Assembly: GCF_032854445.1 (NCBI RefSeq)
Contig: NC_088297.1
Coordinates: forward strand, 10,626,163-10,690,162
Source of the DNA: Liolophura sinensis
Lineage: Eukaryota > Mollusca > Polyplacophora > Chitonida > Chitonidae
Direction of reading: 5' to 3'
DNA length: 64,000 nt
Under the pieces are notes generated by a model, which was not told the origin of the DNA, searched no databases, and saw only the letters and a list, made by a program, of their open reading frames with translations. Shown piece after piece: positions 18,757-59,241 of this stretch. Every line of letters starts with the position of its first letter. Positions within the stretch are counted from its first letter, which is position 1. Both the position numbers and the translations under genes were made by a program.

Positions 18757-18808
18757 GAGCGTCAGACTAAAGCTTCAAAGGTCCCTGGTTCAATCCCGGG
18801 TTTCGGCA
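18757..18808 (+). pseudogene. tRNA-Phe 3' half at LINE E 3' junction
   Basis: Starts at tRNA nucleotide 22 (GAGCGTCAGACTAAAG...) directly after the LINE tail; T arm and acceptor strand intact, anticodon loop mutated. Confidence 0.9.
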
Positions 18809-19255
18809 AAAGCCTACTCGGCGACTGGGAAAACAAATATTTTTTTTGGTTATCTACACTTGATTAAAGTTCATTGCTAACCACGTAATGTGTCGGCCAA
18901 TGTATCATGCTTAAAAGGGATGCTCACATCGTGAAATACCTAAGTGTGCTTGCATTATTTTGGACATGCTGACATCCATTGATTATTTTATAAATGAAAA
19001 AAGCCGTTGTCGAATAGATAAGTTGTGTTTGATTAAAACAGACCTGTTACTCGTCTCTGACAATATGGATTGGTGTTGCCATTATATTTTGAAGATGTTT
19101 AGCACTCGAGGTGCACCTGTGAATATGTGTTCATAATTCAGGTTATCCCAGAATAGGAAAAAAATGATGAGAAATTGTTCTTGAAGAAATGCTAATGTAC
19201 TGGGTTGAATGTCTGTTTAGGTTGTTGTGACTAAAATGTGCGTGAAAATTCGTCG

Positions 19256-19328
19256 GCCGAAATAGCTCAGTTGGGAGAGCGTTAGACTGAAGATCTAAAG
19301 GTCCCTGGTTCAATCCCGGGTTTCGGCA
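19256..19328 (+). tRNA. tRNA-Phe (GAA)
   Basis: Consensus at all 73 positions. First intact array gene after LINE E. Confidence 0.98.
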
Positions 19329-19787
19329 AAAGCCAACTCGGCGGCTGGCAAGACAAATATTTTTCTAAGAGCTGTTGGTTTTCTATGCTTGATTCAAGTG
19401 GATTTGATTGCTGACCACGGAATGTGCCGGCCAAGGTCATGCTTAAAAGTGATGCTCACACGGTGAAATCCCCATGTGTTCTTGCAAAAAATTTGGTCAT
19501 GCTGACATCATTTGATTACTTTATAAACCAAAAGAGCCGTTTTCAAAAAGATAAGTTGTGTTTGATTAAAACAGCCCTGTTACTGGCCTCTGACAGTTTG
19601 GATTGGTGTTGCCATTATGTTTTCACGATATTTAGCAGTAGAGGTGCACCTGTGAATATGTGTCCATAATTCAGGTTATCCCAGAATAGGAAAAAGAAGA
19701 ATGAGAAATTGTTCTTGGAGAAAGGTTGATGCATTGTGTTGAAAGTCTGCATAGGTTGTTGTGACTAAAACATGCGTGAAAATTTCG

Positions 19788-19859
19788 GCCTAAATAGATC
19801 GTTGGGAGAGCGTTAGACTGAAGATCTAAAGGTCCCTGGTTCAATCCCGGTTTTCGGCA
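19788..19859 (+). pseudogene. tRNA-Phe variant, probably inactive
   Basis: 72 nt; A box damaged (TAGATCGTTGG instead of TAGCTCAGTTGG) and acceptor GCCTAAA mispairs. LINE C starts 117 nt after it. Confidence 0.85.
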
Positions 19860-20018
19860 AAAGCCTTCTCGGCGGCTGGGAAGACAAATATTTTTCTAAG
19901 AGCTGTTGGTTTTCTATGCTTGATTCAAGTGGATTTGATTGCTGATCACGGAATGTGTCCGCTAATGTATCGGAGAGGAGTTGGGTGAGCCCACAGCCTG
20001 TGAAGAAGACTGAGGAGA

Positions 20019-21176
20019 GTGAAGACGTGCTTTTTTCCAGCGCAACAAATCGGTGGCATCCTTAGGTATAGTGACATGTTTTTGTACAATTTTATGAAAT
20101 TTACTGCTCACTGGGCCCCTGATGAAATGTCAGATGATTTGATAGCGTCCGCTTTGAAACCATACAGAGAGTGCCTTAGTGTTACGAAACCACGGGTTTC
20201 TGACAAGGAATTTGCGGGCGTGCGAACTGGTATTCGAGTATATCGGTTCAGGTGCCACAAAACGCGGTATGTGCCGAACTTTATTAATCTGGGGGGTGAG
20301 GTAGTAATGTTTACATACCCTGGGCAAATCTACGAATGTAGAAAGTGTGGACAAAATGGGCATAAAGCCATGGAATGCTGTGCCTTATGGTGCGATAACT
20401 GTTCGGGGTTCTCCCTCCATGATGATCCCCACACTGTGAAGGATTGTACACGAGCGTGTCGTATGTGTGGCTCGATGGAACATGCAAGTGGTAATTGCTG
20501 TGCTCGGGCTTTAACGTATGCGCCCAAAGTGAAGAATTCTGTGCAGAATACGGCGAGCGTGCAGGGCCCCGTTGACGTTGTTGGGGGCGGTAGCGACGAT
20601 GACTTAGAGTTTCCACCTCCTGCCATGGAAATTGTTAAACTGGACAAGGACAACAACATAATTGACAACGAAGGAGAAGATGGTGATGATGTTGACGTAG
20701 ATAGTGATGATGATGGTGATAGTGGTGATGTTGATGATGATAACGACGAAACTGAGATTGACGCTACCAGAGCGGAGGATGATCCAGTGGGTGACATGGA
20801 GTGTGACAGAGGTACGCGCGTTGTACCTAATGTCACCAAAGACCGTGATGGTGTGACCAGAGATTTGTCTGATGCGATAGAAGTCGAGGCGGAAGTCCAC
20901 TGCGTGCGATCTTCAGAGCCCGTTGAGCAAAAGAGAGCAAAACTGGACAATGAACTTGAGAGGACATCATCGGCATTATGGAGCACTCTACCGCCGGATT
21001 GCGTAATGCAGGGGGACTCGCACATATCTGAAATCATGACACCCACGCCCTCTCAAGGTACTGATAAAATGTTATTAGAGTATCGGCGCAGGAAATCTTT
21101 CGCCTCTTGTTCGAGAGCGCGTAAAGACAATGAATGGATTTTACTAGGATATGTTCATGGATATGCTCCCACATGA
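20019..21176 (+). CDS. LINE family 1 (C) ORF1, zinc-knuckle protein
   Basis: 385-codon open frame; the true protein probably began upstream in sequence now deleted, so only from FTAHWAPDEMSD on is it comparable with copies A/B. Then follow an RRM-like stretch (GIRVYRFRCHKTRYVPNF) and three Cys/His knuckles: CRKCGQNGHKAMEC, CDNC...HTVKDC and CRMCGSMEHASGNC. A very acidic D/E tract comes next, and the C-terminus has KRAKLDNE, MTPTPSQ and MLLEYRRRKS, all conserved in A/B. Expected role: RNA binding and chaperoning in the LINE particle. Confidence 0.75.
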   Translation: MKTCFFPAQQIGGILRYSDMFLYNFMKFTAHWAPDEMSDDLIASALKPYRECLSVTKPRVSDKEFAGVRTGIRVYRFRCHKTRYVPNFINLGGEVVMFTYPGQIYECRKCGQNGHKAMECCALWCDNCSGFSLHDDPHTVKDCTRACRMCGSMEHASGNCCARALTYAPKVKNSVQNTASVQGPVDVVGGGSDDDLEFPPPAMEIVKLDKDNNIIDNEGEDGDDVDVDSDDDGDSGDVDDDNDETEIDATRAEDDPVGDMECDRGTRVVPNVTKDRDGVTRDLSDAIEVEAEVHCVRSSEPVEQKRAKLDNELERTSSALWSTLPPDCVMQGDSHISEIMTPTPSQGTDKMLLEYRRRKSFASCSRARKDNEWILLGYVHGYAPT

Positions 21177-21179
21177 ACA

Positions 21180-24100
21180 ATGGGTATGTACCTTCATATT
21201 TTTCTTATCTGTTTAATGTCTCTCGTATCTAACATACGTTTTGGCACTTTCAATGTTAATGGTCTGCGTGCTGTTACAAAGCAGGAGCAGGTACAACAAT
21301 TTGTTTTTGATAACAATATTGATATTTTGTTCTTACAAGAAACACATTTTCAAGATTATAAGGACGCTGGGAATTTTACAATTCCAGGGGATGCTAGGTG
21401 GCCCTACGGTTCAAGTAAAAGTTGTGGGATAGGGACTGTGATTAGATACACTGTTGACTGTGTAATACGTAATGTCGTTAGATGTCCTAACGGGCGTTAC
21501 ATAAGTGTTAACGTGACAATTAATGACACGGTTCTTAATCTGATATGTATATATGCTCCTAATAATCCACAGGATAGGAAAGAATTCATTTCTAACTTAG
21601 ACTGTGTAATGCGTGGGAGTGAATTAGTCATTCTTGGTGGGGATTTTAACTGCGTTGAAAATATTATACTGGATAGAAATGGGTCTGCAAATAATGTGAG
21701 AAATGTTGGTATTGATGAGATTAATAGTATTAAATATGATTTTGAGGTGCGTGATATTTTTAGGAAGTTTCATCCGGACAAAGGGTGCTACACCTCGTCA
21801 AGAGGCCAGTGCGCTAGTCGGCTTGATAGATTCTATCTTCCTAATGCTGTTCAGAGTTATGTTACCTTTTGTGATGTTAAACATGTCTCCTTTTCTGATC
21901 ATTCTTGTCTTATTGTTGATGTAAATTTTACGGATGTAATTACTTGGGGTCCGTTTTATTGGAAATGTAACACTTCTGTTTTGAATGACGATGAACTTGC
22001 TGTACAAATAAATGATGTCTTTGTAAGTAGTTTTTCTGATTGTGACATTTGTGATGATACTCTAGTGGACAGGTGGGAGGCTTTCAAAAAGGATTGTAAA
22101 GATGTAATACGTAATTATTGTTCCCAAGTTTCATCAAGGAAAACGAGCCAGTTGTTGGATCTACAAGATGAATTGACTGTATTAAAGACAAACCCTGTTG
22201 TAAATAGTGATAAGATTAGTAATGTAAAGAAGACTATTAATTGTTTAAATAGAGACAGACATGCGGGATCGGTTATTAGGGCTAAGGCTGTTCACTTTGA
22301 TAAGGGGGAAAAGCCTATGAAGTATTTTATTAGGAGGGAAGTGGGAAGGGGGGAAAAAGAAAATGATAAAGGGAATTAGGTGTCATGGGAATGAGCCTCA
22401 GTCCCATAAATCCCAGCATGAAATTGCTAAATGTATCAGGTCATACTACAAACAATTGAACAGCAAGCAGGATACAGGATACTTTGTGTGTCAAGACGCG
22501 TTTCTATCAGAATTACCGAAGTTAAATGATAATTGTAAGGCTTTTTATGAAGGCGCCTTGACGGAACAAGAGCTCTTGTTTGCTGTAAATAATATGTGTA
22601 AATACCGTTCACCTGGTTGTGATGGCTTACCGGCCGAGTTTTATGTAACGTGCATGGGTTAAATTACTGTACACAAAGATCTCCAGCAGTGTGATTGTAA
22701 ATGGACACATAAGTGAACAATTTAGTTTAAATAGAGGAGTCCGCCAGGGGTGTTCCCCATCTCCACTGTTGTACGTTTTATCGTTAGAGCCGTTTATATC
22801 GGCGCTTAGGAAGTCCAGTGTGATTAATGGTGTTGCCATGCCGGGAACAACTAAGCAGGCTAAGGTTTCTGCCTTTGCGGATGACACTACGGCAATTCTC
22901 TCAGATGAAAGTTCCGTGCAAGAAGTGGTTACTTTGACAGAAAATTACGGCAGGGCATCTGGGGCAAAACTGAATCTGTCCAAGACCACTGTCCCACCTA
23001 TTGGAAATTGGGATAGTTCTTTAGTGCCTGATTTAGGGTTGAATACTGTTCAGAATTCCAAAATTTGTGGAATTTTTTTTGGAAAAGACCAGGCGGAACT
23101 CAACTGTACTCGTGTCTTAAATAAAGTTTAAGAAGAAGGTAACTTCTTGGTGTGGAAGATATTTAACTCTTAGGGGGAGGGCTGTACTAATTAACACTGT
23201 CTCCCTAGCGGTTTTGTGGTTCACAGCACAATGTACTTTGGTACCTGCTAAATGTGTCACTCAATGTACGCAGATAGTATTTAAATTTTTGTGGAATAAT
23301 AAGCCTGAGAGTTTAAAGCGGGTTGTTGTACACAATAAATTTAAGAGTGGAGGTTTAAATGTTCATAATGTTGAGTGCAAAGCGAAAGCTTTAGCCGTAC
23401 GACATGTATTAAAGTTGGTTTATGGTACTGAGGCTGACTGGAAATATTTTGCGATTTACTGGTTAGGTTTATCTTTGAGGAGTGTTTGACCTGAATTTGC
23501 CAGGCACAGTGTCCCACACTCAGAACGTAGCACACTCTTCTACCAGTTTGCGATAAATGCTTTTAAGGAATTCTATAGTGGTCAAAGGTTACCTTCTGTG
23601 ATGTACCCTAGTAAAGTTATTTATGATCAGCTTGTCACCAAAGCCTTACAGGCGCCACGTGTGATGCTAACATTTCCGCAGTTGAGATGGGGTGTTGTTT
23701 GGAAAACGGTGTTCCACAAGTTTTTAGATCATAACTTGATCAATTTCTGTTTTAAGCTTGTTCATGATATTTTGCCCGTCAAAGAAAGACTACTGAGGCG
23801 TAATATCGCCACTGACGGCTCCTGTGTATTTTGTTCTGGTTCGGAAACACAGGACCATTTGTTTGTTCAATGTCATATTGTCTCTCAGGTGTTCCAGGAA
23901 TTCATCCAAGTGTTTGTTCTTTATGGTCGCGCTTTGACGAAACTTGACAAGGACACACTAATTTACAAATCAGTTAATTTTCCTCTTAGTCCGGAAGTGC
24001 GGGCTATGGTGTTATATATAATTACAGTGTTACAATTTTGTACTTGGTGTGCAAGAAACGAAGTGGTGTTTCAGAATAAGCAAAGAGATGCAAGTACGAT

Positions 24101-24245
24101 CGTTGCCTTGGCTAAAGGTATGATTAAGACAGGAATTCATGTTGATTTCTATCGGTTAAATCGGTCAATGTTTCAAAAGTATTGGTGTCACAACAAAATC
24201 TTCTGTAGGGTAGACAATGACAAGCTAGTTTATCTACTCCGCTAA
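21180..24245 (+). pseudogene. LINE family 1 (C) ORF2, endonuclease-reverse transcriptase, broken
   Basis: Starts 3 nt after the ORF1 stop. AP-type endonuclease motifs are intact: FNVNGLR, LQETHF, YAPNN, LGGDFNCV, SFSDHS. Frame is lost at ~22355 in an A/G-rich run. Between ~22650 and 22675 about 480 bp of the RT (from EFYV to the VIVNGH region) is missing. RT resumes RGVRQGCSPSPLLYVL and AFADDTTAIL. Further damage: a shift at ~23129 and a TGA at ~23487. C-terminal VFCSGSETQDHLFVQC and the end YLLR at 24245 are preserved. Confidence 0.88.
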
Positions 24246-24804
24246 CAAAGTAATATAATGATTACAAGTGTCACACAGCAGTCCCAACTTGTCTGTAATA
24301 TGTCTTGTTTTTAACTGGGCTGCGCTGTGAATCTCAATATTACTCTGTTACTGATATGTCATTGTGTATGTATGTTTTCGGTAACGTTTATTGAGAATAA
24401 ATTCAATGTTTTCAAAAAAAAAAAAAAAAAAAAAACGTATCCGAGAAAGAGTCATACTTAAAAGTGATGCTCACAAGGTGAATTCCCCATGTGTTCTTGC
24501 AAAAAAATTGGTCATGATGACATACATTGATTACTTTATAAACCGAAAGAGCCGTTGTCGAATAGATCAGTTGTGTTTGATTAAAACAGACCTGTCACTG
24601 GTCTCTGAAAATGTGGATTGGTGTTGCCATTATATTTTGTAGATGTGTAGCACTCGAGGTGCACCTGTGAAAATGTGTTCACAATTCAGGTTATCCCAAA
24701 AAAGGAAAGAAAAAAATAAGAAATTGTTCTTGGAGAAAGGCTGATGCAATGTGTTAAAAGTCTGCATAGGTTGTTGTGACTTAAACGTCTGTGAAAATTT
24801 GTCG

Positions 24805-33058: not shown

Positions 33059-33208
33059 AAAGCCTACTCGGCTGCTGGCAAGAGAAATATTTTTCTAAGA
33101 GGTGTTGGTTTTCTATGCCTGATTCATGTGGATTTGATTGCTGACCACGGAATGTGTCCGCTAACGTATCCGAGAGGGGGAGTGTGCTAGACGCCGAAGT
33201 GAACGGAC

Positions 33209-33577
33209 GTGTCGGTTATTCTCTGCTGTTTACACATTTGTGCAACAACAACGCTTGTTTTTGAGACTGATTTTTTGGTGATCTGGGAGCCCACAGAGCT
33301 TGAGTTTGGCCAGTGGTTACTGTTTGGTGAAGGGCGTGTGCCCCGTTGGATGAGGTATGTCCAAGCCCGTGTCGTTTTCGCCTGTAAACAGGCCAAGCAG
33401 AACTTTGTCTGTGTCAATCTCTACACGAAGCAGCCCGGCATTTTCTATGGCTGTCCAGAGGGACTTTATTCCTTTTCTGTCAAGTGTGTTAAATATCAAG
33501 ACAGAGCTAATAAGTTTTCAGAAGAATTATTTAAAGAAAGACTTCTATCTCCGCGTGTCTACAGTGGCTGGGCATAA
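33209..33577 (+). CDS. LINE family 1 (A) upstream open frame, possible ORF1 N-terminus
   Basis: 122-codon frame starting near the element's 5' end, offset +1 from the 435-codon ORF1 and overlapping it. Its composition (WEPTELEFGQWLLFGEGRVP, then VVFACKQAKQNFVCVNLYTK) looks more like protein than the Ser/Pro/Arg-rich start of the other frame. The real ORF1 N-terminus may therefore lie here and be separated by an ancestral frameshift near 33530. Copy B has the same arrangement. Confidence 0.45.
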   Translation: MSVILCCLHICATTTLVFETDFLVIWEPTELEFGQWLLFGEGRVPRWMRYVQARVVFACKQAKQNFVCVNLYTKQPGIFYGCPEGLYSFSVKCVKYQDRANKFSEELFKERLLSPRVYSGWA

Positions 33578-34664
33578 TGCCCTAGTGAGTAAATCCAATG
33601 TTGTTATAAATGGAACGACGTGGTCCATTATGCCCGTGTCGTCAGTTTACCTGAATCTGACGGCCCACTGGGCACCGGATGAAATGTCAGATGACGCTAT
33701 CGAGACAGCTTTGAAACCCTATGGTGAATGCCTGGGTGTGACGAAACCCAGATTTTCAGACCCGGAGCTCTCACATGTTCGGACAGGTATTCGGATTTAC
33801 AGATTTAGGTGTCACAAAGTTCGTTATGTACCAAATTTTATTAATTTCTGTGGTGACATTGTTATGTTTACCTACCCCGGGCAAACTTATGAATGTCGGA
33901 AGTGTGGCCAAAAATCACACAAGGCGGCAGAGTGTAGAGCACTGTGGTGTTCTAACTGCGACGGTTTCTCCCCCCATGAGAATCCTCATACAGAGAAGGA
34001 CTGTACAAATCCATGCCGAATGTGTGACTCAGGGCTTCATACGGTCAGTGACTGTTGTGCGAGAGCAATGTCGTACGCGGCGCGAGTTAAGGGAAACCTA
34101 CCGACTATGCGCCAGTATAATAAGGAAGACGCCGTAAAACAAGATGACATTGATGTTGACGTCAGCGACGATGAAGACCCATTCAACGCACCTGCTATGG
34201 AACTGGTTCAAGACAGCGAGGAGAACGAAGACGAAATCGACGGGAATGGTGACGACAGCGCCGATGAAGACGTCAGCGACGACAGCGAGTCTGATAAGGA
34301 GATGGACGTCCGGGAGAATACTAAGAACACCGAAGAAGTGGATGTTGGTGATAATGAAACGTCATCAGCTGTCCCAAGGGTGAAGAATGTGGTCGTGGCT
34401 GACGTGCACGCTCCCGACGTGCGTTCACCAGTCCCAGTCGAGGAAAAGCGAGCTAAGTTGGACAATGGCAGTACAGCCGAGGAGGCAGCGTCATCTATCC
34501 CGCCCAGTTCCCATCCTACTGATTATGATGGCGTTGATGCCGATCAGTCGTCAGACTGTATGACGCCGACCCCATCTCAGGAGGGGGACACCATGCTTCT
34601 GGAATACAGGAAAAGAAAATCGCTTGCTTCTCGTGCGAGGCAGCGAATGAAAAGAGACAAATGA
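33357..34664 (+). CDS. LINE family 1 (A) ORF1, zinc-knuckle RNA-binding protein
   Basis: 435 residues in one open frame. From about residue 60: DFYLRVSTVAGHNALVSK, then LTAHWAPDEMSDDAIETALK and GIRIYRFRCHKVRYVPNF, an RRM-like module typical of L1/Tx1-type ORF1. Cys/His knuckles follow: CRKCGQKSHKAAEC, CSNC...HTEKDC, CRMCDSGLHTVSDC. The tail (about 265-350) is rich in Asp/Glu, then KRAKLDN, MTPTPSQEGD and a basic C-terminus RARQRMKRDK. The Met start is uncertain because the first ~55 codons may be a shadow of the overlapping frame. Expected to bind LINE RNA. Confidence 0.8.
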   Translation: MSKPVSFSPVNRPSRTLSVSISTRSSPAFSMAVQRDFIPFLSSVLNIKTELISFQKNYLKKDFYLRVSTVAGHNALVSKSNVVINGTTWSIMPVSSVYLNLTAHWAPDEMSDDAIETALKPYGECLGVTKPRFSDPELSHVRTGIRIYRFRCHKVRYVPNFINFCGDIVMFTYPGQTYECRKCGQKSHKAAECRALWCSNCDGFSPHENPHTEKDCTNPCRMCDSGLHTVSDCCARAMSYAARVKGNLPTMRQYNKEDAVKQDDIDVDVSDDEDPFNAPAMELVQDSEENEDEIDGNGDDSADEDVSDDSESDKEMDVRENTKNTEEVDVGDNETSSAVPRVKNVVVADVHAPDVRSPVPVEEKRAKLDNGSTAEEAASSIPPSSHPTDYDGVDADQSSDCMTPTPSQEGDTMLLEYRKRKSLASRARQRMKRDK

Positions 34665-34691
34665 GTTGTAGCGTAATTAGGACTCTCTTAT

Positions 34692-37600
34692 TTGACCACA
34701 ATGGGTATGTACGCTCTACCTTTACTTATTTGTATAATGAGCTTAAATAATATTCGTTTTGGGACTTCAAAAATTAATGGTTTACGGGATCCGTCTAAAG
34801 AAGAACATGTCAAGCAATTTGTTTTCGATAAAGGAATTGATGTACTATTCTTACAGAAATCACACTTCGAAAACTATAATGACACTAAATATTTGCAAAT
34901 CCCAGGCGATCCAAGGTGGGCGTATGGGTCAAATCGAAGTTGTGGGGTGGGAATAATTATTAGGTATACGGTAGACTGCTTTATACGGAAAATACAGAGG
35001 TGCCCTAACGGTCGCTACATAAGCCTTAGGGTTGATATCAACAACACTGCTTTAAACCTTGTTTGTGTATATGCCCCTAATAATCCAAAGGAAAGAAAAG
35101 AGTTTATTTCTAATCTAGATAATGTGATGCAGGGGAGTGAGTTGGTTATTATGGGTGGGGATATTAATTGTGTTGAGAGCATTGAATTAGATAGAGCTGG
35201 CTGTGTCACTAATGGAAGGAATGATGGAGTGGACGAAATTAATAATTTGAAAAGAGATTTTAGTATTTGTGATATTTTTAGGAAACTGCATCCAAATAAG
35301 AATTGTTACACGTGGTCTAGGCGCCAGTGTGCCAGTAGATTGGATAGATTTTATATCCCTAACGCTGTGTTTAAGTATGTAACCCAGTGTGATGCTGTAC
35401 ATGTGTCTTTTTCTGATCATTCGTGTTTGTTTTTTGACATCTCTTTTGAAGATGTCATTTCATGGGGGCCGTTCCACTGTAAGTGTAATACTTCTGTTTT
35501 AAATGACACGGAGCTTGTTGATAATATGAAATCCGTCTTCCATGATATTTTCTCTGTCTGTACAACTGGTCATGCAGATCTAATAGACAGATGGGAGACA
35601 TTTAAAAGGGAATGTAAAGACAGGATTCGGAGTTACTGTAAGGAGAAATCTATGAACAAAAAACGTGATTTGTTGGAACTTGAACAAGAATTAAATGCGT
35701 TGAAATCTAGTCCAATCATTAACTGTGAGCGTATTGACAATGTGAAAAAGACTCTAAATGCCCTTTATAAGTCGAATCAGGCGGGAGCGGTTATCCGTGC
35801 TAAAGCTGTTCATTTTGATCAGGGAGAAAAAGCAACCAAATATTTCATTAGACGAGAAGTTGGTAGGGGCAGAAAGAAGATGATCAAAAGTATTACTTGT
35901 CATAGTGATTCTTCAATATCCCATGAATCTCAGGAAGGTATTGCTAAGTGTATAAGGTCGTATTATATGAAATTGTATACTGAACAAGATACTGACTCCT
36001 CCATTCAAGATGAGTTCTTGTCATCGCTTCCGATGTTAAATGACGATTGTAAAACTGCCTGCGAAGGCCTTTTGACTGAACAGGAGTTGTTTTTTGCAGT
36101 AAAAAATATGTCTAAAAACCGTTCGCCGGGATGCGACGGTTTGCCAGCAGAGTTTTATGTACAATTTTGGCCCCTTTTTTCGGGTGTGTTTACGGATGTA
36201 GTTAATTACTGTTTTAACTTGGGTAGATTAAGTAATTCACAGCGTTCTGGGTTAATCACACTATTATGTAAGGACCCCGACAATGCCGGAAGCATAAAAA
36301 ACTGGAGGCCAGTTAGCTTACTAAATAGATTAGTAGATTTAGATTGTTTCTAAAGCTTTGTGCAATCGGTTAAAAAATGTGATCGATACAATTGTACTTC
36401 AGAATCAGACATGTGGAATACCAGGCCGAAGTATTTTCGACAACCTTCACTTATTACGAAATACATATGATTATGTTGAACAAAAAGATTTAAAAGGATG
36501 CTTTCTTAACTTAGACCAGGAGAAAGCCTTTGACAGAGTAGACTGGTCATTTTTGTTCAAATGTTTAGAGAAATTTAACTTCGGACCCTACTTTTGTAAG
36601 TGGGTGCAATTATTCTATACTGACATTACAAGTAGTGTTATTGTGAACGGGCACATAACAGAAGAATTTAAATTGAGTAGAGGTGTCTGACAGGGTTGTT
36701 CTTTGTCACCATTATTGTATGTGTTGTCCTTAGAGCCCTTTATAGCGGCCATTAGAAACAATGACGAAATTAATGGTGTACGGTTACCCGGCACAAATAA
36801 GGAAACAAGAGTGTCGGCATTTGCAGATGATACGACTGCAATTTTATCTGAAGAGAGTTCTGTTCCGCATGTAATTAAAATAGCAGAAAGTTATGGAAAA
36901 GCCTCAGGAGCAAAACTCAACTTGTTGAAAAGCACGGTTCTTCCCTTTGGTAACTGGGACGAAACTAACGTGCACAGTGGTGGGCTTAACATCACTACAA
37001 ACTCAAAGATTTGTGGGGTATTTTTTGGACCAGATCAAACAGAACTCAATTCTGAGCGTGTTTTAAGTAAGGTAAAGAAACATGTATCAGCATGGAATGG
37101 AAGATATTTGACCCTACGGGGGAGGTCTGTCTTAGTTAATACAGTTGCTTTAGCTGTCTTATGGTTTTCTGCACAGTGTACTCTGTTGCCACCTAAATGT
37201 GTCAATCAATGTTCCCAAACTGTGTTCAGATTTTTGTGGGATAACAAGCCCGAAAGTTTAAAGAGAGTTGTCGTACATAATAAAATAGGGAATGGAGGTC
37301 TAAACGTACATAATATAGAATGTAAAATAAAAGCACTTGTTATTCGGCATGTTTTAAAATTAATTCATGGAACAACAGCGGAATGGAAATACTTTGCCAT
37401 CTATTGGTTGGGTTTACCCCTAAGACATGTTTGTCGGGCATTCTGTCGTTCCAATGTCCCACATTCTGAAAACATTCCACCGTTTTATAGACTGGCCTTG
37501 AGCGCCTGGAGAGAATTTACCACAGGTGTACAGCAACCGGTAACATTGTGTTCAAGCAGGTATATTTATGAATATTTTGTAACAAAAATAGTACATTGTC

Positions 37601-38189
37601 CAAGAGCAATGGTGTCTATGCCGCATTTGGACTGGGTTAGAATATGGAAAACTGTTTTTCATCAATTCTTAGATCACAATTTGGTCAACTTCAGTTACAA
37701 GTTGGTTCATGACATTTTGCCCGTTAAGGAAAAACTTCTTAGGAGAAATGTAGCCACCGATGACTTGTGTGTTTTTTGCTCCCTGTCTGAAACTCGGCAA
37801 CATCTGTTTGTACAAATGTAAGATCGTTCAGGATGTGTTTAATGACTTTAACCGGATATTTGTTTTGTTTGCGAACTATTTACCAAATATGGACTCGAAA
37901 ACATTAATTTACAAGGTATTCAATTCCACCTTTAACCAGGAAGTTAGAGCTGTGATGGTGTATGTCATATGTGTTCTTCAGTTTAGTATTTGGTGTGCAC
38001 GCAACGACATAATATTTCAGAAAAAAGAGGGATTCTGTTGCTATTGTTAAGGCCGCCAAAGGAATAATTAAAACCCGTATTCATGTTGACTTTTTTCGAC
38101 TAGACTGGCCATCTTTCGAGAAAATCTAGTGTATAAACAAAGTCTTCTGTACAGTACGGAATGATAAATTAGTGTATTTATTGAAATGA
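34692..38189 (+). pseudogene. LINE family 1 (A) ORF2, endonuclease-reverse transcriptase with stop and shifts
   Basis: Endonuclease: SKINGLRD (FGTS.. in place of FGTL..), LQKSHF (the catalytic Glu of LQETH is replaced by Lys), YAPNN, MGGDINCV, SFSDHS. RT: RSPGCDGLPAEFY, NWRPVSLLN, CGIPGRSIFDN, NLDQEKAFDRVDW, GV*QGCSLSPLLYVL (TGA at 36688-36690 replaces the Arg codon), AFADDTTAIL at ~36814-36843. C-terminal zinc region VFCSLSETRQHLFVQ. Defects: rearranged bases around 36320-36356, the TGA, one extra base near 37817, and a shift in an A-run near 38020. Catalytically dead as read. Confidence 0.93.
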
Positions 38190-38722
38190 GCAGCTAATGT
38201 GCAATTGTTCTATTCACAAAGCAGTCATCTTTTCTGTGATATTTTATTTTAATTAAGACTGCCTTGTGATTTCAAAAGTTTGTGATAGCCGGGTATTGTT
38301 AAATCTTGTGTATTTGATGACAATCTGGGAATAAATTCAACAATTTTGAAAAAAAAAAAAAAATTGCTGACCACGGAATGTGCCGAGAAAGAGTCATGCT
38401 TAAAAGTTATGCTCACATGATAAAATCCCAACGTGTTGTTGCAAAATATTTGGTTATGCTGACAACCATTAATTACTTTATAAACCGAAAGAGCCGTTGT
38501 CAAATAGATAGGTTGTGTTTGATTGAAACAGACCTTTTGGTGTTGCCATTTAATTTTGAAGATGTTTAGCACTCGAGGTGCACCTGTGAATATGTGTTCA
38601 CAATTCAGGTTATCCCAACAAAGGAAAAAAAAAATGAGAAAATGTTCTTGGAGAAAGGCTGACGCAATGTGTTAAAAGTCTGTATAGGTTGTTGTGACTT
38701 AAACCTCCGTGAAAATTTGTCG

Positions 38723-40954: not shown

Positions 40955-41128
40955 AAAGCCTACTCGGCGGCTGGCAATACAAATATTTTTCTAAGAGCTA
41001 TTGGTTTTCTATGCCTGGTTCATGTGGATTTGACTGCTGACCACGGAATGTATCTACTAACGTATCCGAGAAAGAGTCATGCTTAAAAGTGATGCGGAGG
41101 AGTGTGCTAGACGGCGAAGTGAACGGAC

Positions 41129-41491
41129 GTGTCGGTTATTCTCTGCTGTTTATACATTTGTGCAACAACAACGCTTGTTTTTGAGACTGATTTTTTGGTG
41201 AACTGGGAGCCCACAGAGCTTGAGTTTGGCCAGTGGTTACTGTTTGGTGAAGGGCGTGTGCCCCGTTGGATGAGGTATGTCCAAGCCCGTGTCGTTTTCG
41301 CCTGTAAACAGGCCAAGCAGAACTTTGTCTGTGTCAATCTCTACACGAAGCAGCCCGGCATTTTCTACGGCTGTGCAGAGGGACTTTATTCCTTTTCTGT
41401 CAAGTGTGTTAAATATCAAGACAGAGCTAATAAGTTTTCAGAAGAATTATTTAAAGAAACACTTCTATCTCCGCGTGTCTACAGTGGCTAG
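41129..41491 (+). CDS. LINE family 1 (B) upstream open frame, possible ORF1 N-terminus
   Basis: 120 codons, equivalent of 33209-33577 in copy A and again offset from the main ORF1 frame. Confidence 0.45.
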   Translation: MSVILCCLYICATTTLVFETDFLVNWEPTELEFGQWLLFGEGRVPRWMRYVQARVVFACKQAKQNFVCVNLYTKQPGIFYGCAEGLYSFSVKCVKYQDRANKFSEELFKETLLSPRVYSG

Positions 41492-42584
41492 GCATAATGC
41501 CCTAGTGAGTAAATCCAATGTTGTTATAAATGGAACGACGTGGTCCATTATGCCCGCGTCGTCAGTTTACCTGAATCTGACGGCCCACTGGGCACCGGAT
41601 AAAATGTCAGATGACACTATCGAGGCAGCTTTGAAACCCTATGGTGAATGCCTGGGTGTGACGAAACCCAGATTTTCAGACCCGGAGCTCTCACATGTTC
41701 GGACAGGTATTCGGATTTACAGATTTAGGTGTCACAAAGTTCGTTATGTACCAAATTTTATTAATTTCGGTGGTGACATTGTTATGTTTACCTACCCCGG
41801 GCAAACCTATGAATGTCGGAAGTGTGGCCAAAAATCACACAAGGCGGCAGAGTGTAGAGCACTGTGGTGTTCTAACTGCGACGGTTTCTCCCCCCATGAG
41901 AATCCTCATACAGAGAAGGACTGTACAAATCCATGCCGAATGTGTGACTCAGGGCTTCATACGGTCAGTGACTGTTGTGCGAGAGCAATGTCGTACGCGG
42001 CGCGAGTTAAGGGAAACCTACCGACTATGCGCCAGTATAATAAGGAAGACGCCGTAAAACAAGATGACATTGATGTTGACGTCAGCGACGATGAAGACCC
42101 ATTCAACGCACCTGCTATGGAACTGGTTCAAGACAGCGAGGAGAACGAAGACGAAATCGACGGGAATGGTGACGACAGCGCCGATGAAGACGTCAGCGAC
42201 GACAGCGAGTCTGATAAGGAGATGGACGTCCGGGAGAATACTAAGAACACCGAAGAAGTGGATGTTGGTGATAATGAAACGTCATCAGCTATCCCGAGGG
42301 TGAAGAATGTGGTCGTGGCTGACGTGCACGCTCCCGACGTGCGTTCACCAGTCCCAGTCGAGGAAAAGCGAGCTAAGTTGGACAATGGCAGTACAGCCGA
42401 GGAGGCAGCGTCATCTATCCCGCCCAGTTCCCATCCTGCTGATTATGATGGTGTTGATGCCGATCAGTCGTCAGACTGTATGACGCCGACTCCATCTCAG
42501 GAGGGGGACACCATGCTTCTGGAATACAGGAAAAGAAAATCGCTTGCTTCTCGTGCGAGGCAGCGAATGAAAAGAGACAAATGA
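41277..42584 (+). CDS. LINE family 1 (B) ORF1, zinc-knuckle RNA-binding protein
   Basis: 435 residues, a handful of substitutions from copy A: for example DKMSDDTIEAALK versus DEMSDDAIETALK, and FINFGGD where A has FINFCGD (older copy C has FINLGGE, supporting Gly). Same knuckles, acidic tract, KRAKLDN and MTPTPSQ. Confidence 0.8.
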   Translation: MSKPVSFSPVNRPSRTLSVSISTRSSPAFSTAVQRDFIPFLSSVLNIKTELISFQKNYLKKHFYLRVSTVARHNALVSKSNVVINGTTWSIMPASSVYLNLTAHWAPDKMSDDTIEAALKPYGECLGVTKPRFSDPELSHVRTGIRIYRFRCHKVRYVPNFINFGGDIVMFTYPGQTYECRKCGQKSHKAAECRALWCSNCDGFSPHENPHTEKDCTNPCRMCDSGLHTVSDCCARAMSYAARVKGNLPTMRQYNKEDAVKQDDIDVDVSDDEDPFNAPAMELVQDSEENEDEIDGNGDDSADEDVSDDSESDKEMDVRENTKNTEEVDVGDNETSSAIPRVKNVVVADVHAPDVRSPVPVEEKRAKLDNGSTAEEAASSIPPSSHPADYDGVDADQSSDCMTPTPSQEGDTMLLEYRKRKSLASRARQRMKRDK

Positions 42585-42611
42585 GTTGTAGCGTAATTAG
42601 GGCTCTCTTAT

Positions 42612-45600
42612 TTGACCTCAATGGGTATATATGCTCTACCTTTACTTATTTGTATAATGAGCTTAAATAATATTCGTTTTGGGACTTTAAACATTAATGG
42701 TTTACGGGATCCGTCTAAACAAGAACATGTCAAGCAATTTGTTTTCGATAAAGGAATTGATGTACTATTCTTACAGGAAACACACTTCGAAAACTATAAT
42801 GACACTAAATATTTGCAAATCCCGGGCGATGCAAGGTGGGCGTATGGGTCAAATCGAAGTTGTGGGGTGGGAATAATTATTAGGTATACGGTAGACTGCT
42901 TTATACGGAAAATACAGAGGTGCCCTAACGGTCGCTACATAAGCCTTAGGGTTGAGCTCAACAACACTGCTTTAAACCTTGTTTGTGTATATGCCCCTAA
43001 TAATCCAAAGGAAAGAAAAGAGTTTATTTCTAATCTAGATAATGTGATGCAGGGGAGTGAGTTGGTTATTATGGGTGGGGATATTAATTGTGTTGAGAGC
43101 ATTGAATTAGATAGAGCTGGCTGTGTCACTAATGGAAGGAATGATGGAGTGGACGAAATTAATAATTTGAAAAGAGATTTTGGTATTTGTGATATTTTTA
43201 GGAAACTGCATCCAAATAAGAATTTTTACACGTGGTCTAGGCACCAGTGTGCCAGTAGATTGGATAGATTTTATATCCCTAACGCTGTGTTTAAGTATGT
43301 AACCCAGTGTGATGCTGTACATGTGTCTTTTTCTGATCATTCGTGTTTGTTTTTTGATATCTCTTTTGAAGATGTCATTTCATGGGGGCCGTTCTACTGG
43401 AAGTGTAATACTTCTGTGTTAAATGACACGGAGCTTGTTGATGATATTAAATCCGTCTTCCATGATATTTTCTCTGTCTGTACAACTGGTCATGCAGATC
43501 TAATAGACAGATGGGAGACATTTAAAAGGGAATGTAAAGACAGGATTCGGAGTTACTGTAAGGAGAAATCTATGAACAAAAAACGTGATTTGTTGGAACT
43601 TGAACAAGAATTAAATGCGTTAAAATCTAGTCTAATCATTAATTGTGAGCGTATTGACAATGTGAAAAAAACTCTAAATGCCCTTTATAAGTCGAATCAT
43701 GCGGGAGCGGTTATCCGTGCTAAAGCTGTTCATTTTGATCAGGGAGAAAAAGCAACCAAATATTTCATTAGACGAGAAGTTGGTAGGGGCAGAAAGAAGA
43801 TGATCAAAAGTATTACTTGTCATAGTGATTCTTCAATATCCCATGAATCTCAGGAAGGTATTGCCAAGTGTATAAAGTCGTATTATATGAAATTGTATAC
43901 TGAACAAGATACTGACTCCTCCATTCAAGATGAGTTCTTGTCATCGCTTCCGATGTTAAATGACGATTGTAAAACTGCCTGCGAAGGCCTTTTGACTGAA
44001 CAGGAGTTGTTTTTTGCAGTGAAAAATATGTCTAAAAACCGTTCGCCGGGATGCGACGGTTTGCCAGCAGAGTTTTATGTACAATTTTGGCCCCTTTTTT
44101 CGGGTGTGTTTACGGATGTAGTTAATCACTGTTTTAACTTGGGTAGATTAAGTAATTCACAGCGTTCTGGGTTAATCACACTATTATGTAAGGACCCCGA
44201 CAATGCCGAAAGCATAAAAAACTGGAGCTTACTCCAATTAGCTTACTAAATGTAGATTATAAGATTGTTTCTAAAGCTTTGTGCAATCGGTTAAAAAATG
44301 TGATCGATACAATTGTACTTCAGAATCAGACATGTGGAATACCAGGCCGAAGTATTTTCGACAACCTTCACTTATTACGAAATACATATGATTATGTTGA
44401 ACAAAAAGATTTAAAAGGATGCTTTCTTAACTTAGACCAGGAGAAAGCCTTTGACAGAGTAGACTGGTCATTTTTGTTCAAATGTTTAGAGAAATTTAAC
44501 TTCGGACCCGACTTTTGTAAGTGGGTGCAATTATTCTATACTGACATTACAAGTAGTGTTATTGTGAACGGGCACATAACAGAAGAATTTAAACTGAGTC
44601 GAGGTGTCTGACAGGGTTGTTCTTTGTCACCATTATTGTATGTGTTGTCCTTAGAGCCCTTTATAGCGGCCATTAGAAACAATGACGAAATTAATGGTGT
44701 ACGGTTACCCGGCACAAATAAGGAAACAAGAGTGTCGGCATTTGCAGATGATACGACTGCAATTTTATCTGAAGAGAGTTCTGTTCCGCATGTAATTAAA
44801 CTAGCAGAAAGTTATGGAAAAGCCTCAGGAGCAAAACTCAACTTGTTGAAAAGCACGGTTCTTCCCATTGGTAACTGGGACGAAACTAACGTGCACAGTG
44901 GTGGGCTTAACATCACTACAAATTCAAAGATTTGTGGGGTATTTTTTGGACCAGATCAAACAGAACTCAATTCTGAGCGTGTTTTAAGTAAGGTAAAGAA
45001 ACATGTATCAGCATGGAATGGAAGATATTTGACCCTACGGGGGAGGTCTGTCCTAATTAATACAGTTGCTTTAGCTGTCTTATGGTTTTCTGCACAGTGT
45101 ACTCTGTTGCCACCTAAATGTGTCAATCAATGGTCCCAAACTGTGTTCAGATTTTTGTGCGATAACAAGCCCGAAAGTTTGAAGAGAGTTGTCGTACATA
45201 ATAAAATAGGGAATGGAGGTCTAAACGTATATAGTATAGAATGTAAAATAAAAGCACTTGTTACTCGGCATGTTTTAAAATTAATTCATGGAACAACAGC
45301 GGAATGGAAATACTTTGCCATCTATTGGTTGGGTTTACCCCTAAGGCATGTTTGTCGTGAATTCTGTCGTTCCAATGTCCCACATTCTGAAAACATTCCA
45401 CCTTTTTATAGACTGGCCTTGAGCGCCTGGAGAGAATTTTCCACTGGTGTACAGCAACCTGTAACATTGTGTTCAAGCAGGTATATTTATGAATATTTTG
45501 TAACAAAAATAGTACATTGTCCAAGAGCAATGGTGTCTATGCCGCATTTGGACTGGGTTAGAATATGGAAAACTGTTTTTCATCAATTCTTAGATCACAA

Positions 45601-46110
45601 TTTGGTCAACTTCAGTTACAAGTTGGTTCATGACATTTTGCCCGTTAAGGAAAAACTTCTTAGGAGAAATGTAGCCACCGATGACTTGTGTGTTTTTTGC
45701 TCCCTGTCTGAAACTCGGCAACATCTGTTTGCACAATGTAAAATAGTTCAGGATGTGTTTAATGACTTTAACCGGATATTTGTTTTGTTTGCGAACTACC
45801 TACCAAATATGGACTCGGAAACATTAATTTACAAGGTATTCAATTCCACCTTTAACCAGGAAGTTAGAGCGGTGATGGTGTATGTCATATGTGTTCTTCA
45901 GTTTAGTATTTGGTGTGCACGCAACGACATAATATTTCAGAAAAAAACAGGGATTCTGTTGCTATTGTTAAGGCCGCCAAAGGAATAATTAAAACCCGTA
46001 TTCATGTTGACTTTTTTCGACTAGACAGGCCATCTTTCGAGAAAATCTGGTGTATAAACAAAGTCTTCTGTACAGTACGGAATGATAAATTAGTGTATTT
46101 ATTGAAATGA
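42612..46110 (+). pseudogene. LINE family 1 (B) ORF2, endonuclease-reverse transcriptase with stop and shifts
   Basis: Endonuclease motifs are better preserved than in A: LNINGLRD, LQETHF (catalytic Glu present), YAPNN, MGGDINCV, SFSDHS. RT is interrupted by an insertion-type change at ~44225-44236, so NW is followed by a shifted frame. The same TGA as in A replaces the Arg of GVRQGC (44609-44611). AFADDTTAIL and VFCSLSETRQHLFAQC follow in frame, then a shift in the A-run near 45945; the protein end YLLK is at 46110. Fewer lesions than A, but not intact. Confidence 0.93.
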
Positions 46111-46668
46111 GCAGCTAATGTGCAATTGTTCTATTCACAAAGTAGTCATCTTTTCTGTGATATTTTATTTTAATTAAGACTGCCTTGTGATTTCAAAAGT
46201 TTGTGATAGCCGGGTGTTGTGAAATCTGTTGTGTATTTGATGACAATCTGGGAATAAATTCAACAATTTTCAACAAAAAAAAAAAAAGAATGTGTCCGCT
46301 AATGTATCGGAAAAAGTGTCATGCTTAAAAGTGATGCTCACATGATAAAATCCCCATATGTTCTTGCAATAATTTTGAACATGCTAACATCCATTGATTA
46401 CTTTATAAACCGAAAGAGCCGTTGTCGAATAGATAATTGTGTTTGATTGAAACAGACCTTTTAGTGGTGTCAGACAATTTGGATTGGTGCCGCCATTATA
46501 TTTTGAAGATGTTTAACAGTAGAGGTGCACTTGTGAATATTTGTTAGTAATTCATGTTATCCCAGAAGAGAAAAAAAAGAATGAGAAACTGATCTTGGAA
46601 AAGGGTGATGTAGCGTGTTAAAGGTCTGCTTAGGTTGTTGTGACTAAAACGTGCATGAACATTCGTCG

Positions 46669-47206: not shown

Positions 47207-47253
47207 GCCGAAATAGCACAGTTTGTGGAGCGGTAGAATCCCGGGTTTCGGCA
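47207..47253 (+). pseudogene. tRNA-Phe with internal deletion
   Basis: GCCGAAATAGCACAG...GAGCGGTAGA is joined directly to ATCCCGGGTTTCGGCA; nucleotides ~32-59 are gone. Confidence 0.9.
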
Positions 47254-48266: not shown

Positions 48267-48299
48267 GCCGAAATAGCACAGTTTGGGGAGCGGTAGAAT
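48267..48299 (+). pseudogene. tRNA-Phe 5' half
   Basis: Same CACAG and GCGGTAGA changes as 47207; cut after ~nt 31 and fused to spacer AGAATAGAAAAAAAAG, only 133 bp before the next gene. Confidence 0.9.
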
Positions 48300-49480: not shown

Positions 49481-49513
49481 GCCAAAATAGCACAGTTTGG
49501 GGAGCGGTAGAAT
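49481..49513 (+). pseudogene. tRNA-Phe 5' half
   Basis: Same class as 48267, with acceptor GCCAAAA; 133 bp before the next gene. Confidence 0.9.
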
Positions 49514-51239: not shown

Positions 51240-51273
51240 GCCAAAATAGCACAGTTTGTGGAGCGGTAGAATA
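51240..51273 (+). pseudogene. tRNA-Phe 5' half
   Basis: Counterpart of 49481 in the second block (GTTTGTGGAG versus GTTTGGGGAG). Confidence 0.9.
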
Positions 51274-54635: not shown

Positions 54636-54641
54636 GCCGAA

Positions 54642-54674
<33 letters not shown>

Positions 54675-55723: not shown

Positions 55724-55796
55724 GCCGAAATAGCTGAGTTGGGAGAGCGTTAGACTGAAGTACTAAAGATCCCTGTTTCAGTCCCGGGTTTTGGCA
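55724..55796 (+). pseudogene. tRNA-Phe pseudogene
   Basis: Anticodon arm changed to CTGAAGTACTAA, T arm CCTGT, acceptor TTTTGGC. Confidence 0.8.
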
Positions 55797-56267: not shown

Positions 56268-56310
56268 GCCAAAATGGCTCAGTTGGGAGAGCTGAACATC
56301 TAAAAGTCAC
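56268..56310 (+). pseudogene. tRNA-Phe remnant with 7-nt deletion
   Basis: GCCAAAATGGCTCAGTTGGG then GAGAGC joined to TGAACATCTAAA: nucleotides 26-32 (GTTAGAC) are missing, and the T arm is lost. Confidence 0.85.
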
Positions 56311-56584
56311 TAAAAGTCATTCAAGTGGATTTGATTGCTGACCACGGAATGTGTGTCGTGTATCTAACGTATCGGAGAAAGAGTCATGCTTAAAAGTGAT
56401 GCTTACATCTTGAGAACCCTACGTTGGCTTGCAATAATTTTAGACATGCTGACAACCATTGATTACTTTATGAACCTAATGAGCCGTTTTGGAATAGATC
56501 TGTTGTGTTTGGTTGAAACAGACATGTTACTGGCCTCTGACAATATGGATTGGTGTTGCCATTATATTTTGACAATATTTAGCA

Positions 56585-57841
56585 GTCCAAAGCTGCTGTT
56601 TGCCTGGTCGAGGTATAGCGAAAACCGTAGAGAGTATTGGAGATGTTATCGATGGTGTGGCGGAGGACAATCTCGAAATGTATGTACTAAAGGTTAATCA
56701 AGAGAAAACTTTTGACAGAGTCATGCCTTATTGTTAGAAGTGCTGGATATGTTTGGCGTTTGCACGATGTTTGTCAAATAGATTAGTATGCTTTATAATG
56801 ACATTAGAAGTGCTGTAAAAGTCAACGGTTTTGTCACGCCTTTTTTAGAGTGGGGAAATCGGTCCGACAAGGCTGTCCTATCTCAGACATGTTAGATGTG
56901 TTAACTGCTGAACCACTGGGAGCCCTAATAAGAAACTGTAGTACTATAAAAGTCATTGATATTCCATTTCCCTCGTGCACGTCGCTCTGCTTTCAGCATG
57001 CAGACGATACTACCTTGACGCTAAGGGACAAAGAATCTGTAATGAAGACATTGTCAATTACTGATGCATATTGTAAAGCGTCCAACGCTAAAGTAAACAT
57101 GAGTAAAAATGAATTGCTGTATGTGGGAAATAATGAACATCAGAGCCATGTTTCAGGCATACGAGTGAAACGAGACTGTATAAAATTACTGGGTGTATGT
57201 CTAGGCCCAGACGCAATGGTGTGAAGTGAGCTCAACTGGCAAGTGGTAACTAATGATACCCATCGGCTGCTAAAGAACTGGCGACAGCGCCTTTTGACTC
57301 TATATGGTAGGGTAACCGTTATCAACTCATTGGTTGTTTCACGAGTATGGTATAAGTTACCATACAGTTATTTCAATGAATGAATACATAATAAGGATTA
57401 AAAACATTGTATGTAGATTTTTTGTGGAATGGAGGTGGCCATTTAGTAGCGTATGGCACTGTTGTTAAAACTACATGTACAACAGAAGGCGGTATAAACC
57501 TCCAAGATGTAGCTTTGAAGCAGGAAGCGTTTAGACTGAAAACATTGGTGAAATTTTTAAATCCCTGCTGTCGGGCACTGTGGAAGGAATTTTTTCCAGA
57601 TTCCAGAAGCCAGATTTGTAATAAAAAAAGAAGGCGTTTAAAGAGTTTTCATGGCATTGATATTGATATCCACAGACTATTTGTATACTGTGTTAAACAG
57701 ACGTTTGAACAGTATCATGATTACTATAGATCTAAAAGGCGGAACGGAGATTTCTCCAAACGATTTCTGCGAAACATTCATGTCATAAAATTATCTGAAT
57801 CTGGAGAACTCATGTATGCTTTTTAAATGTATACCAACTAT
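56585..57841 (+). mobile_element. LINE family 2, copy F (fragment of ORF2)
   Basis: 5'-truncated fragment entered from array spacer. It begins in the RT with CLPGRGIAKTVESIGDVIDG (compare D CIPGRDVADTICSLRDAM), then NQEKTFDRV, a degenerate RQGCPIS block, FQHADDTTLTL, YCKASNAKVNMSKNE and KLLGVCLGPDA. After a shift it continues as FLWNGGGHLVAYG. It ends at ~57826 without a recognisable 3' UTR or A-tract and abuts a tRNA-Phe gene at nucleotide 22. Confidence 0.85.
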
Positions 57842-57893
57842 GAGCGTTAGACAGAAGATCTAAAGGTCCCTGGTTCATTCCCGGGTTTCGGCA
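57842..57893 (+). pseudogene. tRNA-Phe 3' half at LINE F junction
   Basis: Begins GAGCGTTAGACAGAAGATC at tRNA nucleotide 22; T loop TTCATTC. The flanking spacer to 58351 is a decayed array unit. Confidence 0.9.
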
Positions 57894-58351
57894 AAAGCCT
57901 ACACGGTGGCTGGCAAAACAAATATTTTTCTAACAGCTTATGGTTTTCTAGACTTGATTCAGGTGGATTTTATTGCTGGCCGCTGAATGTGCCGGCCAAT
58001 GTATTCGAGCAACGAGTTGTACTTTAAAGTGATGCTCAGATCGTACGTGTGCTTGCAAAAATTTTTAACATAATGAAATTCATTATTTACTTCATGAACC
58101 GAAAGAGCTGTTGTCGAATAGATAAGTGGTTTTTGACTGAAACAGACCCGTTACTGGCCTCTGAATATTTGGATTTGTATTGCCATTGTAATTTGACGAT
58201 ATATAGCACTCGAGGTGCACCTGTGAAGATCTGTTGATATTTAAGGTTATCCCAGGCTAGAAAAATAGAATGACCAATTCTTCCTGAGAAAAAGCTGATC
58301 TTGTGTGTTGGATGTTTGATTGTTGTGACTAAAATGTGCGTGAAAATTGGT

Positions 58352-58381
58352 CGGCCGAAATAGCTCAGTCGGGAGAGCGTT
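58352..58381 (+). pseudogene. tRNA-Phe 5' half at LINE D junction
   Basis: GCCGAAATAGCTCAGTCGGG then AGAGCGTTAG (nucleotides 1-30); LINE D starts with the next base (GCGGGGACTCACTG). Right end of the array in this window. Confidence 0.92.
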
Positions 58382-59205
58382 AGGCGGGGACTCACTGTGA
58401 CTACTAGGGTGGTCGGACGTGTTTTCAGGGGCTCTCTATAACACAGTGTTGTTGTTGTAGTTCAAATATTTGCTTGAAGTTAAGCATGCATTTCCCGCAC
58501 GGCCGGAGAAGGCGGGAGAAACATTATAGTAAGGATTTTACAATCCTAGTGGATGTTGAAGATACGCAGAATGTTCCTGCGGAAAGCGTTATCCTTGTGT
58601 TGGAGGAAAGCTGTGACCTGAGTGTAGTGTTGGCATGTTTGCCGAAATCCGGGTGCAGTTATGAAATAACTCTGTCGGACAAAGCTTCATGTGACTTACT
58701 GAATGACGGACTGGAGAATGAGGGTGTAAATTATGCTTACCTGGGTGTATCGCAGAGAACTGTGATGGTCTCATTTCTACATTTACCAGCATATGTGAAG
58801 GACGATGCAATTTTGGAAAAGTTGAATGGTGTTGGAGCGGAAATAATCTCAGAGTTCAAAAGGCGTTACTATTCGGGAACACCAGTTGCGGACGGTACGA
58901 GGTATGTAAGAGTACAACTTCCACCTAACAAAAACTCACTACCGTATGCAATGAAATGTACCGGTGGAAACAGTTCGGAGTATTTTGAAGTGCTGCACGA
59001 TAACCAAAAAAAAATCTGTTCTTTCTGCCTTTGGGAGGGCCATTTGTTTTAAGTGCGGAGGTCAGGGTCATGTTGCCCGGGCGTGCCAAGCTGAAATATG
59101 TACGTACTGTTTGAGCTATGGAACCAAGCGAGGTTGTACCTTATGGGAAGTTTGTGGAGCAAAAGATTGTGCATGTGACAGTGCGGATTGTTTGTGTCGA
59201 TACTG

Positions 59206-59206
<1 letters not shown>

Positions 59207-59241
<35 letters not shown>

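Follow-up and report, generated by a model that had tools for sequence, protein, structure and literature searches.

Mobile elements of several kinds are known to target tRNA genes. Among the long interspersed elements (LINEs) with a restriction-like endonuclease (RLE), NeSL-1_TV is specific for tRNA-Pro genes, LIN15_SM for tRNA-Arg and LIN25_SM for tRNA-Glu (PMC4640811), and in zebrafish the LINE Dewa lies in tRNA-Leu spacer (PMC3706591). The dictyostelid TRE5 and TRE3 and two further non-long-terminal-repeat (non-LTR) elements insert outside tRNA genes, either upstream (by ∼50 bp or by 4 bp) or ∼100 bp downstream (PMC5006619), and Dada DNA transposons have fixed target sites within tRNA genes, either in the A box (nucleotides (nt) 8-13) or around the anticodon, and are not always strict as to isotype (PMC8869645, PMC3706591). 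Here we describe LINEs, termed family 2, that interrupt tRNA genes of the mollusc Liolophura sinensis. They are found in a stretch of 64,000 nt (contig NC_088297.1, positions 10,626,163 to 10,690,162 of the forward strand, assembly GCF_032854445.1), hereafter the window, and elsewhere in the 609-Mb genome (G000) that holds it, across which copies were sought. The window carries a tRNA-Phe array of ∼540-base units in tandem, with 37 tRNA-Phe genes called by ARAGORN.

We read family 2 as at least two LINE lineages, D-type and E-type, that insert at one point of tRNA genes of any isotype, and give this reading a probability of about 0.85; a fragment, F, is probably a third lineage. In tRNA genes serving five or more amino acids, the A-rich LINE 3′ end adjoins tRNA sequence that begins at about nt 21/22, with LINE and tRNA reading in one direction. 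Where the 5′ end lies in a tRNA and is clear, it follows linear nt 30-35, and the target duplications are 9-15 bp long. Position numbers are a linear count along each gene; we take linear 21/22 to be position 21/22 of the standard tRNA numbering. The window and its right-hand continuation hold the following family-2 features.

14879..18756, forward strand: decayed element E, representing a second such lineage; its left boundary is approximate; zf-RVT in 18181-18624
18757..18808, forward strand: tRNA-Phe 3′ part (nt 22-73) behind E (blastn, sequence, alignment test)
56588..57841, forward strand: fragment F, a more divergent third copy represented by its reverse transcriptase (RT) part; RVT_1 in 56808-57224, E 4.4e-8
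57842..57893, forward strand: tRNA-Phe 3′ part (nt 22-73) behind F (blastn, sequence, alignment test)
58354..58383, forward strand: tRNA-Phe 5′ half (nt 1-30), split by element D (blastn over 1-30, 96.7%; sequence)
58375..58383, forward strand: left target-duplication copy GAGCGTTAG (tRNA nt 22-30) (sequence)
58384..64000 and on to window-equivalent 64665, forward strand: element D, a decayed LINE with broken frames, interrupted by short repeats
L008:666-674, beyond the window: right target-duplication copy GAGCTTTAG (sequence)

Element D by itself carries a 5′ junction after nt 30 and a 3′ junction before nt 22, and bears out what a preliminary description of this DNA had proposed, a lineage of LINEs that cuts within the tRNA gene. 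That description had correctly begun D directly after nt 30 of tRNA-Phe and placed the junction at 58381/58382, two bases too low; it lies at 58383/58384. The 3′ end falls 665 bases past the window, at 64665/64666 (G000:C3:10690827/10690828), and is followed by tRNA-Phe nt 22-73. The two duplication copies are identical at 8 of 9 positions. E and F join tRNA-Phe at nt 22 (18757 and 57842), as had been reported. The left boundary of F is approximate: spacer homology stops near 56587, and the 3′ part of the element is apparently missing. The short repeats within D and E resemble a repeat known from molluscs.

Flanks were evaluated in an alignment test, against seven reference tRNA genes and 3000 background windows, and in a structure test with 2185 windows; background windows were drawn from the same loci and may hold true tRNA pieces, so that the counts of windows scoring as high as a flank tend to be too high. 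The Phe 3′ flanks of D, E and F score 84-96 against the intact tRNA, and none of the 3000 background windows scores as high (maximum 82). Chance is therefore no candidate explanation, and the junctions of D, E and F inside tRNA-Phe are confirmed as real.

Further D-type copies were sought with the D 5′ end (six genomic places), the D 3′ end (eight) and a 3′-tail pattern (eight, of which six are LINE ends). Locus L014 carries both junctions in tRNA-Gly-CCC, with the 15-bp duplication TCATGCAAGATTCCC; its 3′ flank has an alignment score of 62 (2/3000 background windows as high), and the Gly-GCC flank of L011 one of 56 (3/3000). The 3′ flank of L013 shows a tRNA-Thr anticodon loop (TGT) and that of L035 a tRNA-Pro loop (CGG) and T arm; both are graded moderate, each being equalled by 17/2185 windows in the structure test, and sequence reading places both junctions of L013 in Thr. 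Six D-type 5′ starts are available: D (Phe), L010 (Ser nt 1-33, with 28/33 positions identical to the adjacent tRNA-Ser) and L014 (Gly-CCC nt 1-35) are clear tRNA halves, L012 and L013 are weak, and L011 is taken up below. Two tail-pattern matches were excluded before the count, L019 having nothing in common with D or E and L018 a 29-base piece only; the flank of L018 (listed as L039) is not tRNA (1394/3000 in the alignment test).

Two of these loci show additional structure. At L013:1260-1330 (C12) two consecutive tRNA-Thr-like 5′ halves, each followed by TCACGGGAGG, stand upstream of the LINE start and can be read either as a tandem duplication or as the trace of an earlier aborted insertion; array units near L013 carry a similar TCACGGGG stretch. 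At L014 (C13:25.807-25.817) a ∼400-base tandem duplication repeats the tRNA-Gly-CCC half together with the first part of the LINE, and the locus also holds two 110-base tRNA matches, probably with an intron.

The E 3′ end as query found 13 genomic places, 11 of them with a readable 3′ end: E itself (Phe), six tandem copies and one separate copy on C13 (Ala), single copies on C6 (Cys) and C5 (Leu-UAA), and C8:4.409. The flanks on C13 align to tRNA-Ala genes and that on C6 to tRNA-Cys genes, in both cases intact ones. Such a gene stands 0.7-1.1 kb downstream on C6 and at five of the six loci of the tandem Ala group; none for tRNA-Ala was called around the separate copy, C13:6.676. The Ala alignments begin at nt 21-23, the Cys alignment only from nt 27. 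The Cys flank, like those of L011 and L014, is called from its alignment to genomic tRNAs. For the Leu-UAA flank the best alignment is to tRNA-Ser, beginning at nt 21 with a score of 42 (8/3000 as high); this flank folds with a UAA anticodon loop (2/2185 as high in the structure test) and gave the sole cmscan match in a scan of five flanks (E 1.7), cut exactly at the junction. Two tandem Ala copies have a 5′ start after about nt 35 of a tRNA-Ala half, and an E-type Ala copy with both junctions (the 5′ one after about nt 35, the 3′ one at nt 21) has a duplication of ∼14-15 bp. The 9-bp target duplication of the preliminary description is thus seen in D, and its length is not fixed, given the Gly-CCC and Ala copies.

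The six tandem Ala copies, of which every flank was read and three were aligned, are treated as a single event. On that basis a readable 3′ end is available for 14 insertions, seven of the D-type, six of the E-type and F. Nine are clear (Phe, Gly-GCC, Gly-CCC, Ala, Cys and Leu-UAA), two moderate (Thr and Pro) and three weak; for Ser, the 3′ junction (L036) is weak and the 5′ junction (L010) clear. Nearly all of these 3′ junctions fall at one position of the target gene, and in seven of the nine clear ones the match to the tRNA of that isotype starts at nt 21-23, 0-9 bases behind the set junction. The eight 5′ starts comprise four clear tRNA halves (D, L010, L014 and the Ala copy), two weak ones (L012, L013) and two that are not tRNA (L011, E). 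Intact tRNA genes of the same isotype occur in the same locus for Gly-GCC, Ser, Ala and Cys and 11-24 kb away for Gly-CCC. Scatter of junctions into non-tRNA sequence, which had been named beforehand as evidence to the contrary, is not seen at the 14 3′ ends read (three of them weak, and with six RT places outside the census); it is seen at one of the six D-type 5′ starts. The places C8:38.936 (the rest of L010), L012, C8:38.850 and C1:65.219, without a readable 3′ end, were left out, their likeness to D or E ending short of the 3′ end; the tail pattern found no tail in C8:38.850 and C1:65.219.

The elements encode an RT of LINE type, RVT_1 being found in L010 and F: the RT piece of L010 matches this domain with E 1.1e-20, and the RT of D is 78% identical to it (protein search). 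The nearest solved RT structure to that of L010 is LINE-1 ORF2 (8uw3, E 7.2e-16), with R2 behind (E 7.1e-7), so that, as compared with R2, the RT does not fall on the R2/NeSL side. The endonuclease piece of L010 aligns with the family-1 endonuclease protein (E 1.2e-9; family 1, the other LINEs of the array, is treated below), which itself passes PF03372. A-rich 3′ ends are present in D, E, L011, L013, L014, L035, L036, L037 and the C5, C6 and C13 copies, and not in F; they go together with target duplications of variable length (9 and 15 bp). Frames are decayed in every copy inspected (D, E, F, L010, L012 and parts of two more).

Insertion probably proceeds by target-primed reverse transcription. 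The endonuclease would nick the bottom strand just past position 21, the LINE RNA would be reverse-transcribed from the 3′-OH on the complement of nt 22, and a second cut, 9-15 nt further along, would open the top strand. Six intact tRNA genes (Phe, Gly-CCC, Gly-GCC, Ser, Ala, Cys) are broadly alike before the nick (TAGCTCAGTTGGGA, TGGTGTAGTGGTA, TGGTTCAGTGGTA, TGGCCGAGTGGTT, TAGCTCAGATGGTA, TAGCTCAGTGGTA), and nt 22-36, past it, vary between isotypes. The common stretch corresponds to the A box, part of the promoter for RNA polymerase III. Because the targets have this stretch in common and differ over nt 22-36, we infer, with less assurance than for the course of the insertion, that the A box (nt 8-21) positions the nick. 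Every insertion would split and kill one tRNA gene; copies may persist because several of the targets sit in repeated tRNA arrays.

The site might instead be located through the RNA polymerase III machinery (TFIIIC/TFIIIB on the gene), as by Dictyostelium TRE5-A, and not through DNA letters. Isotype indifference suits a shared protein landmark, although TFIIIC would, we assume, cover the very stretch to be nicked. PMC3706591 sets the protein-guided TRE5-A against DNA-reading elements, and the family-1 relatives in this same genome lie 79-141 bp downstream of tRNA-Phe, like the TRE3 window of ∼100 bp (PMC5006619). Protein-guided elements, however, are said in PMC3706591 to land near the gene and not at specific inner positions, whereas the inner 3′ junction found here is near constant. 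We consider guidance by the machinery unlikely, with more in its favour than the remaining alternatives. That family 2 is specific for tRNA-Phe and acquired other targets rarely, close to what the preliminary description proposed, might be suggested by three separate copies (D, E, F) sharing one tRNA-Phe array; it hardly merits belief, since relatives occupy the corresponding position in other isotypes, the E-type in Ala, Ala, Cys and Leu and the D-type in two Gly kinds, probably in Thr and Pro, and with one Ser 5′ half.

The junctions could also be secondary, spacer insertions having been followed by recombination within tRNA arrays that moved their ends into genes. Such arrays do recombine, as truncated tRNA genes and duplicated junctions attest, and the 5′ ends of E, F and L011 lie outside tRNA. 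Recombination would not readily make a 9- or 15-bp duplication around an A-rich 3′ end, nor about one breakpoint across isotypes, and joining the flanks of D restores an intact tRNA-Phe (ARAGORN); we hold this origin very improbable. Still less credit is due to the idea that the tRNA halves belong to the transposon ends, as in short interspersed elements. Ends derived from tRNA are common among retroelements. Here, however, the halves vary within one lineage with the isotype matching on both sides (Phe/Phe, Gly-CCC/Gly-CCC, Ala/Ala), and the start common to the six D-type copies lies behind them. Insertion by family 2 at one inner point of tRNA genes remains our preferred explanation.

Several observations weigh against it. 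The census leaves out six RT places of ≥53% identity (C1:39.95, C10:12.19, C1:65.215, C9:13.92, C1:64.33 and C4:12.78). The 5′ start of L011 is outside any tRNA and the left ends of E and F lie in spacer (as first described), so that rearrangement has to be added. Fragment F stops within its coding region, without a tail, and its junction may have a different cause. The Thr and Pro flanks are at background in the alignment test (275 and 179 of 3000, with no Thr or Pro references), and their calls come from reading the anticodon arm without an intact gene from the same genome. L036 has a weak, Ser-like 3′ flank (AAGGCGAT; score 22, 591/3000) ∼0.7 kb from an intact tRNA-Ser, and L037D a weak one, perhaps Leu (score 30, 34/3000); these two give 11 and 12 in the structure test. 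That test does not single out L011 and L014 (116 and 448 of 2185 windows as high), nor is the Cys flank outstanding in it (448/2185). The flank of C8:4.409 is weak and Glu-like, perhaps Glu when read against tRNA-Glu. A cmscan (Rfam) search of 100-bp junction flanks, itself underpowered, found tRNA in 1/20 at E≤1, and a repeat on five flanks in 1/5 at E≤10; of the joined flanks given to ARAGORN, those of D yielded a tRNA call and those of L013 (two variants), L014 and the Ala copy none. As to the enzyme, the endonuclease piece of L010 matches Exo_endo_phos_2 with E 0.0027, below the Pfam cutoff (18 versus 27.4), and the Exo_endo_phos match at L012:2376-3086 is outside the stretch alignable to D.

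Family 1, the other LINE group of the window, inserts in the spacer at unit positions 152-214, which is 79-141 bp past tRNA-Phe, with duplications of 11 to ∼50 bp.

19978-24434: family-1 copy, 3′ junction at unit position 178, duplication ∼11 bp
33175-38363: family-1 copy, 3′ junction at unit position 152, duplication ∼37 bp
41095-46288: family-1 copy, 3′ junction at unit position 165, duplication ∼50 bp

The preliminary description had called families 1 and 2 unrelated, one sparing the gene and the other destroying it. The contrast is true for the window, but the two are relatives: their pol proteins are homologous (35% identity, E 4.6e-23), and the RTs of the window's two family-1 copies are 47% and 49% identical to that of L010. 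The list of RT relatives holds 151 matches, 150 of 1055 candidates having been scored. Among the matches listed, 22 of 135 relatives outside family 2 (<53% identity) lie within 100 kb of 11 family-2 places (one of these, on C4, without an identified isotype), where an even distribution would give 0.49; open frames of 1044-1214 aa occur in six of the 22, and two of the 22 are the family-1 copies of the window. A separate group of RTs, at 39-41% identity and with open frames reaching 1308 aa, forms rows spaced mostly ∼6.1 kb.

C8:38.90-38.92, C5:6.59-6.64, C12:24.45-24.50, C4:8.12-8.15, C13:6.56, C6:78.34 and C3:20.39: family-1-like clusters (RT protein search)
C1:91.016-91.046, C2:9.948-9.966, C5:0.298-0.310 and C6:8.404-8.416: rows of the 39-41% RT group

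Conceivably, at somewhat less than even odds, the whole LINE clade lives on tRNA genes: family 2 would read the A box and cut any tRNA gene after nt 21, the family-1-like sister, with intact frames, would settle beside genes of the same arrays, and the arrays would be the common ground that lets a generic cutter persist.

The array itself contains further broken tRNA-Phe sequences.

14543..14594, forward strand: lone tRNA-Phe fragment, nt 21-72 (blastn match, sequence reading)
47207-47253: array unit with tRNA-Phe cut after nt 31 and fused to nt 57, with TAGA microhomology
48267-48297, 49481-49511 and 51240-51270: tRNA-Phe truncated past nt 31 and fused to spacer position 443, with TAGA microhomology

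The lone fragment ends a run (14515-14594) from spacer through an A-rich stretch into tRNA-Phe, near the family-2 breakpoint and without an intervening element; it may mark another insertion at this point or a deletion. Judged by eye, E begins ∼30-50 bases downstream of it, a short repeat (∼14620-14870) being inserted between the two. The breaks at 48297, 49511 and 51270, near tRNA nt 31, were considered as insertion events and dropped, resembling TAGA microhomology deletions; they look like one event, later duplicated.

Family 2 shares with NeSL-1_TV, LIN15_SM and LIN25_SM that these are LINEs specific for tRNA genes; those elements are related to NeSL, on the RLE side, with one tRNA kind named per family, whereas family 2 has an RT nearer to L1 than to R2 and several isotypes per lineage. 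Dewa is, like family 1 of the window, a LINE tied to a tRNA array; it sits in the spacer, with one isotype reported, whereas family 2 lies inside the gene in several isotypes. The dictyostelid elements are likewise non-LTR retrotransposons using tRNA genes as a class, but not inside the gene. Dada resembles family 2 in having fixed inner tRNA-gene sites and differs in its DDE transposase, in its 6-7 bp duplications and in that a family mostly keeps to one isotype. The open-licence literature searched yielded no description of an L1-like LINE within tRNA genes of several isotypes. Site-specific LINEs are usually bound to the sequence of one gene family. If our reading is true, specificity has here been widened to a gene class through a shared promoter element, and the insertions are a natural experiment in how a genome tolerates tRNA gene loss within arrays. 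What differs from the known systems is the use of one inner position across isotypes, by related L1-like LINE copies.

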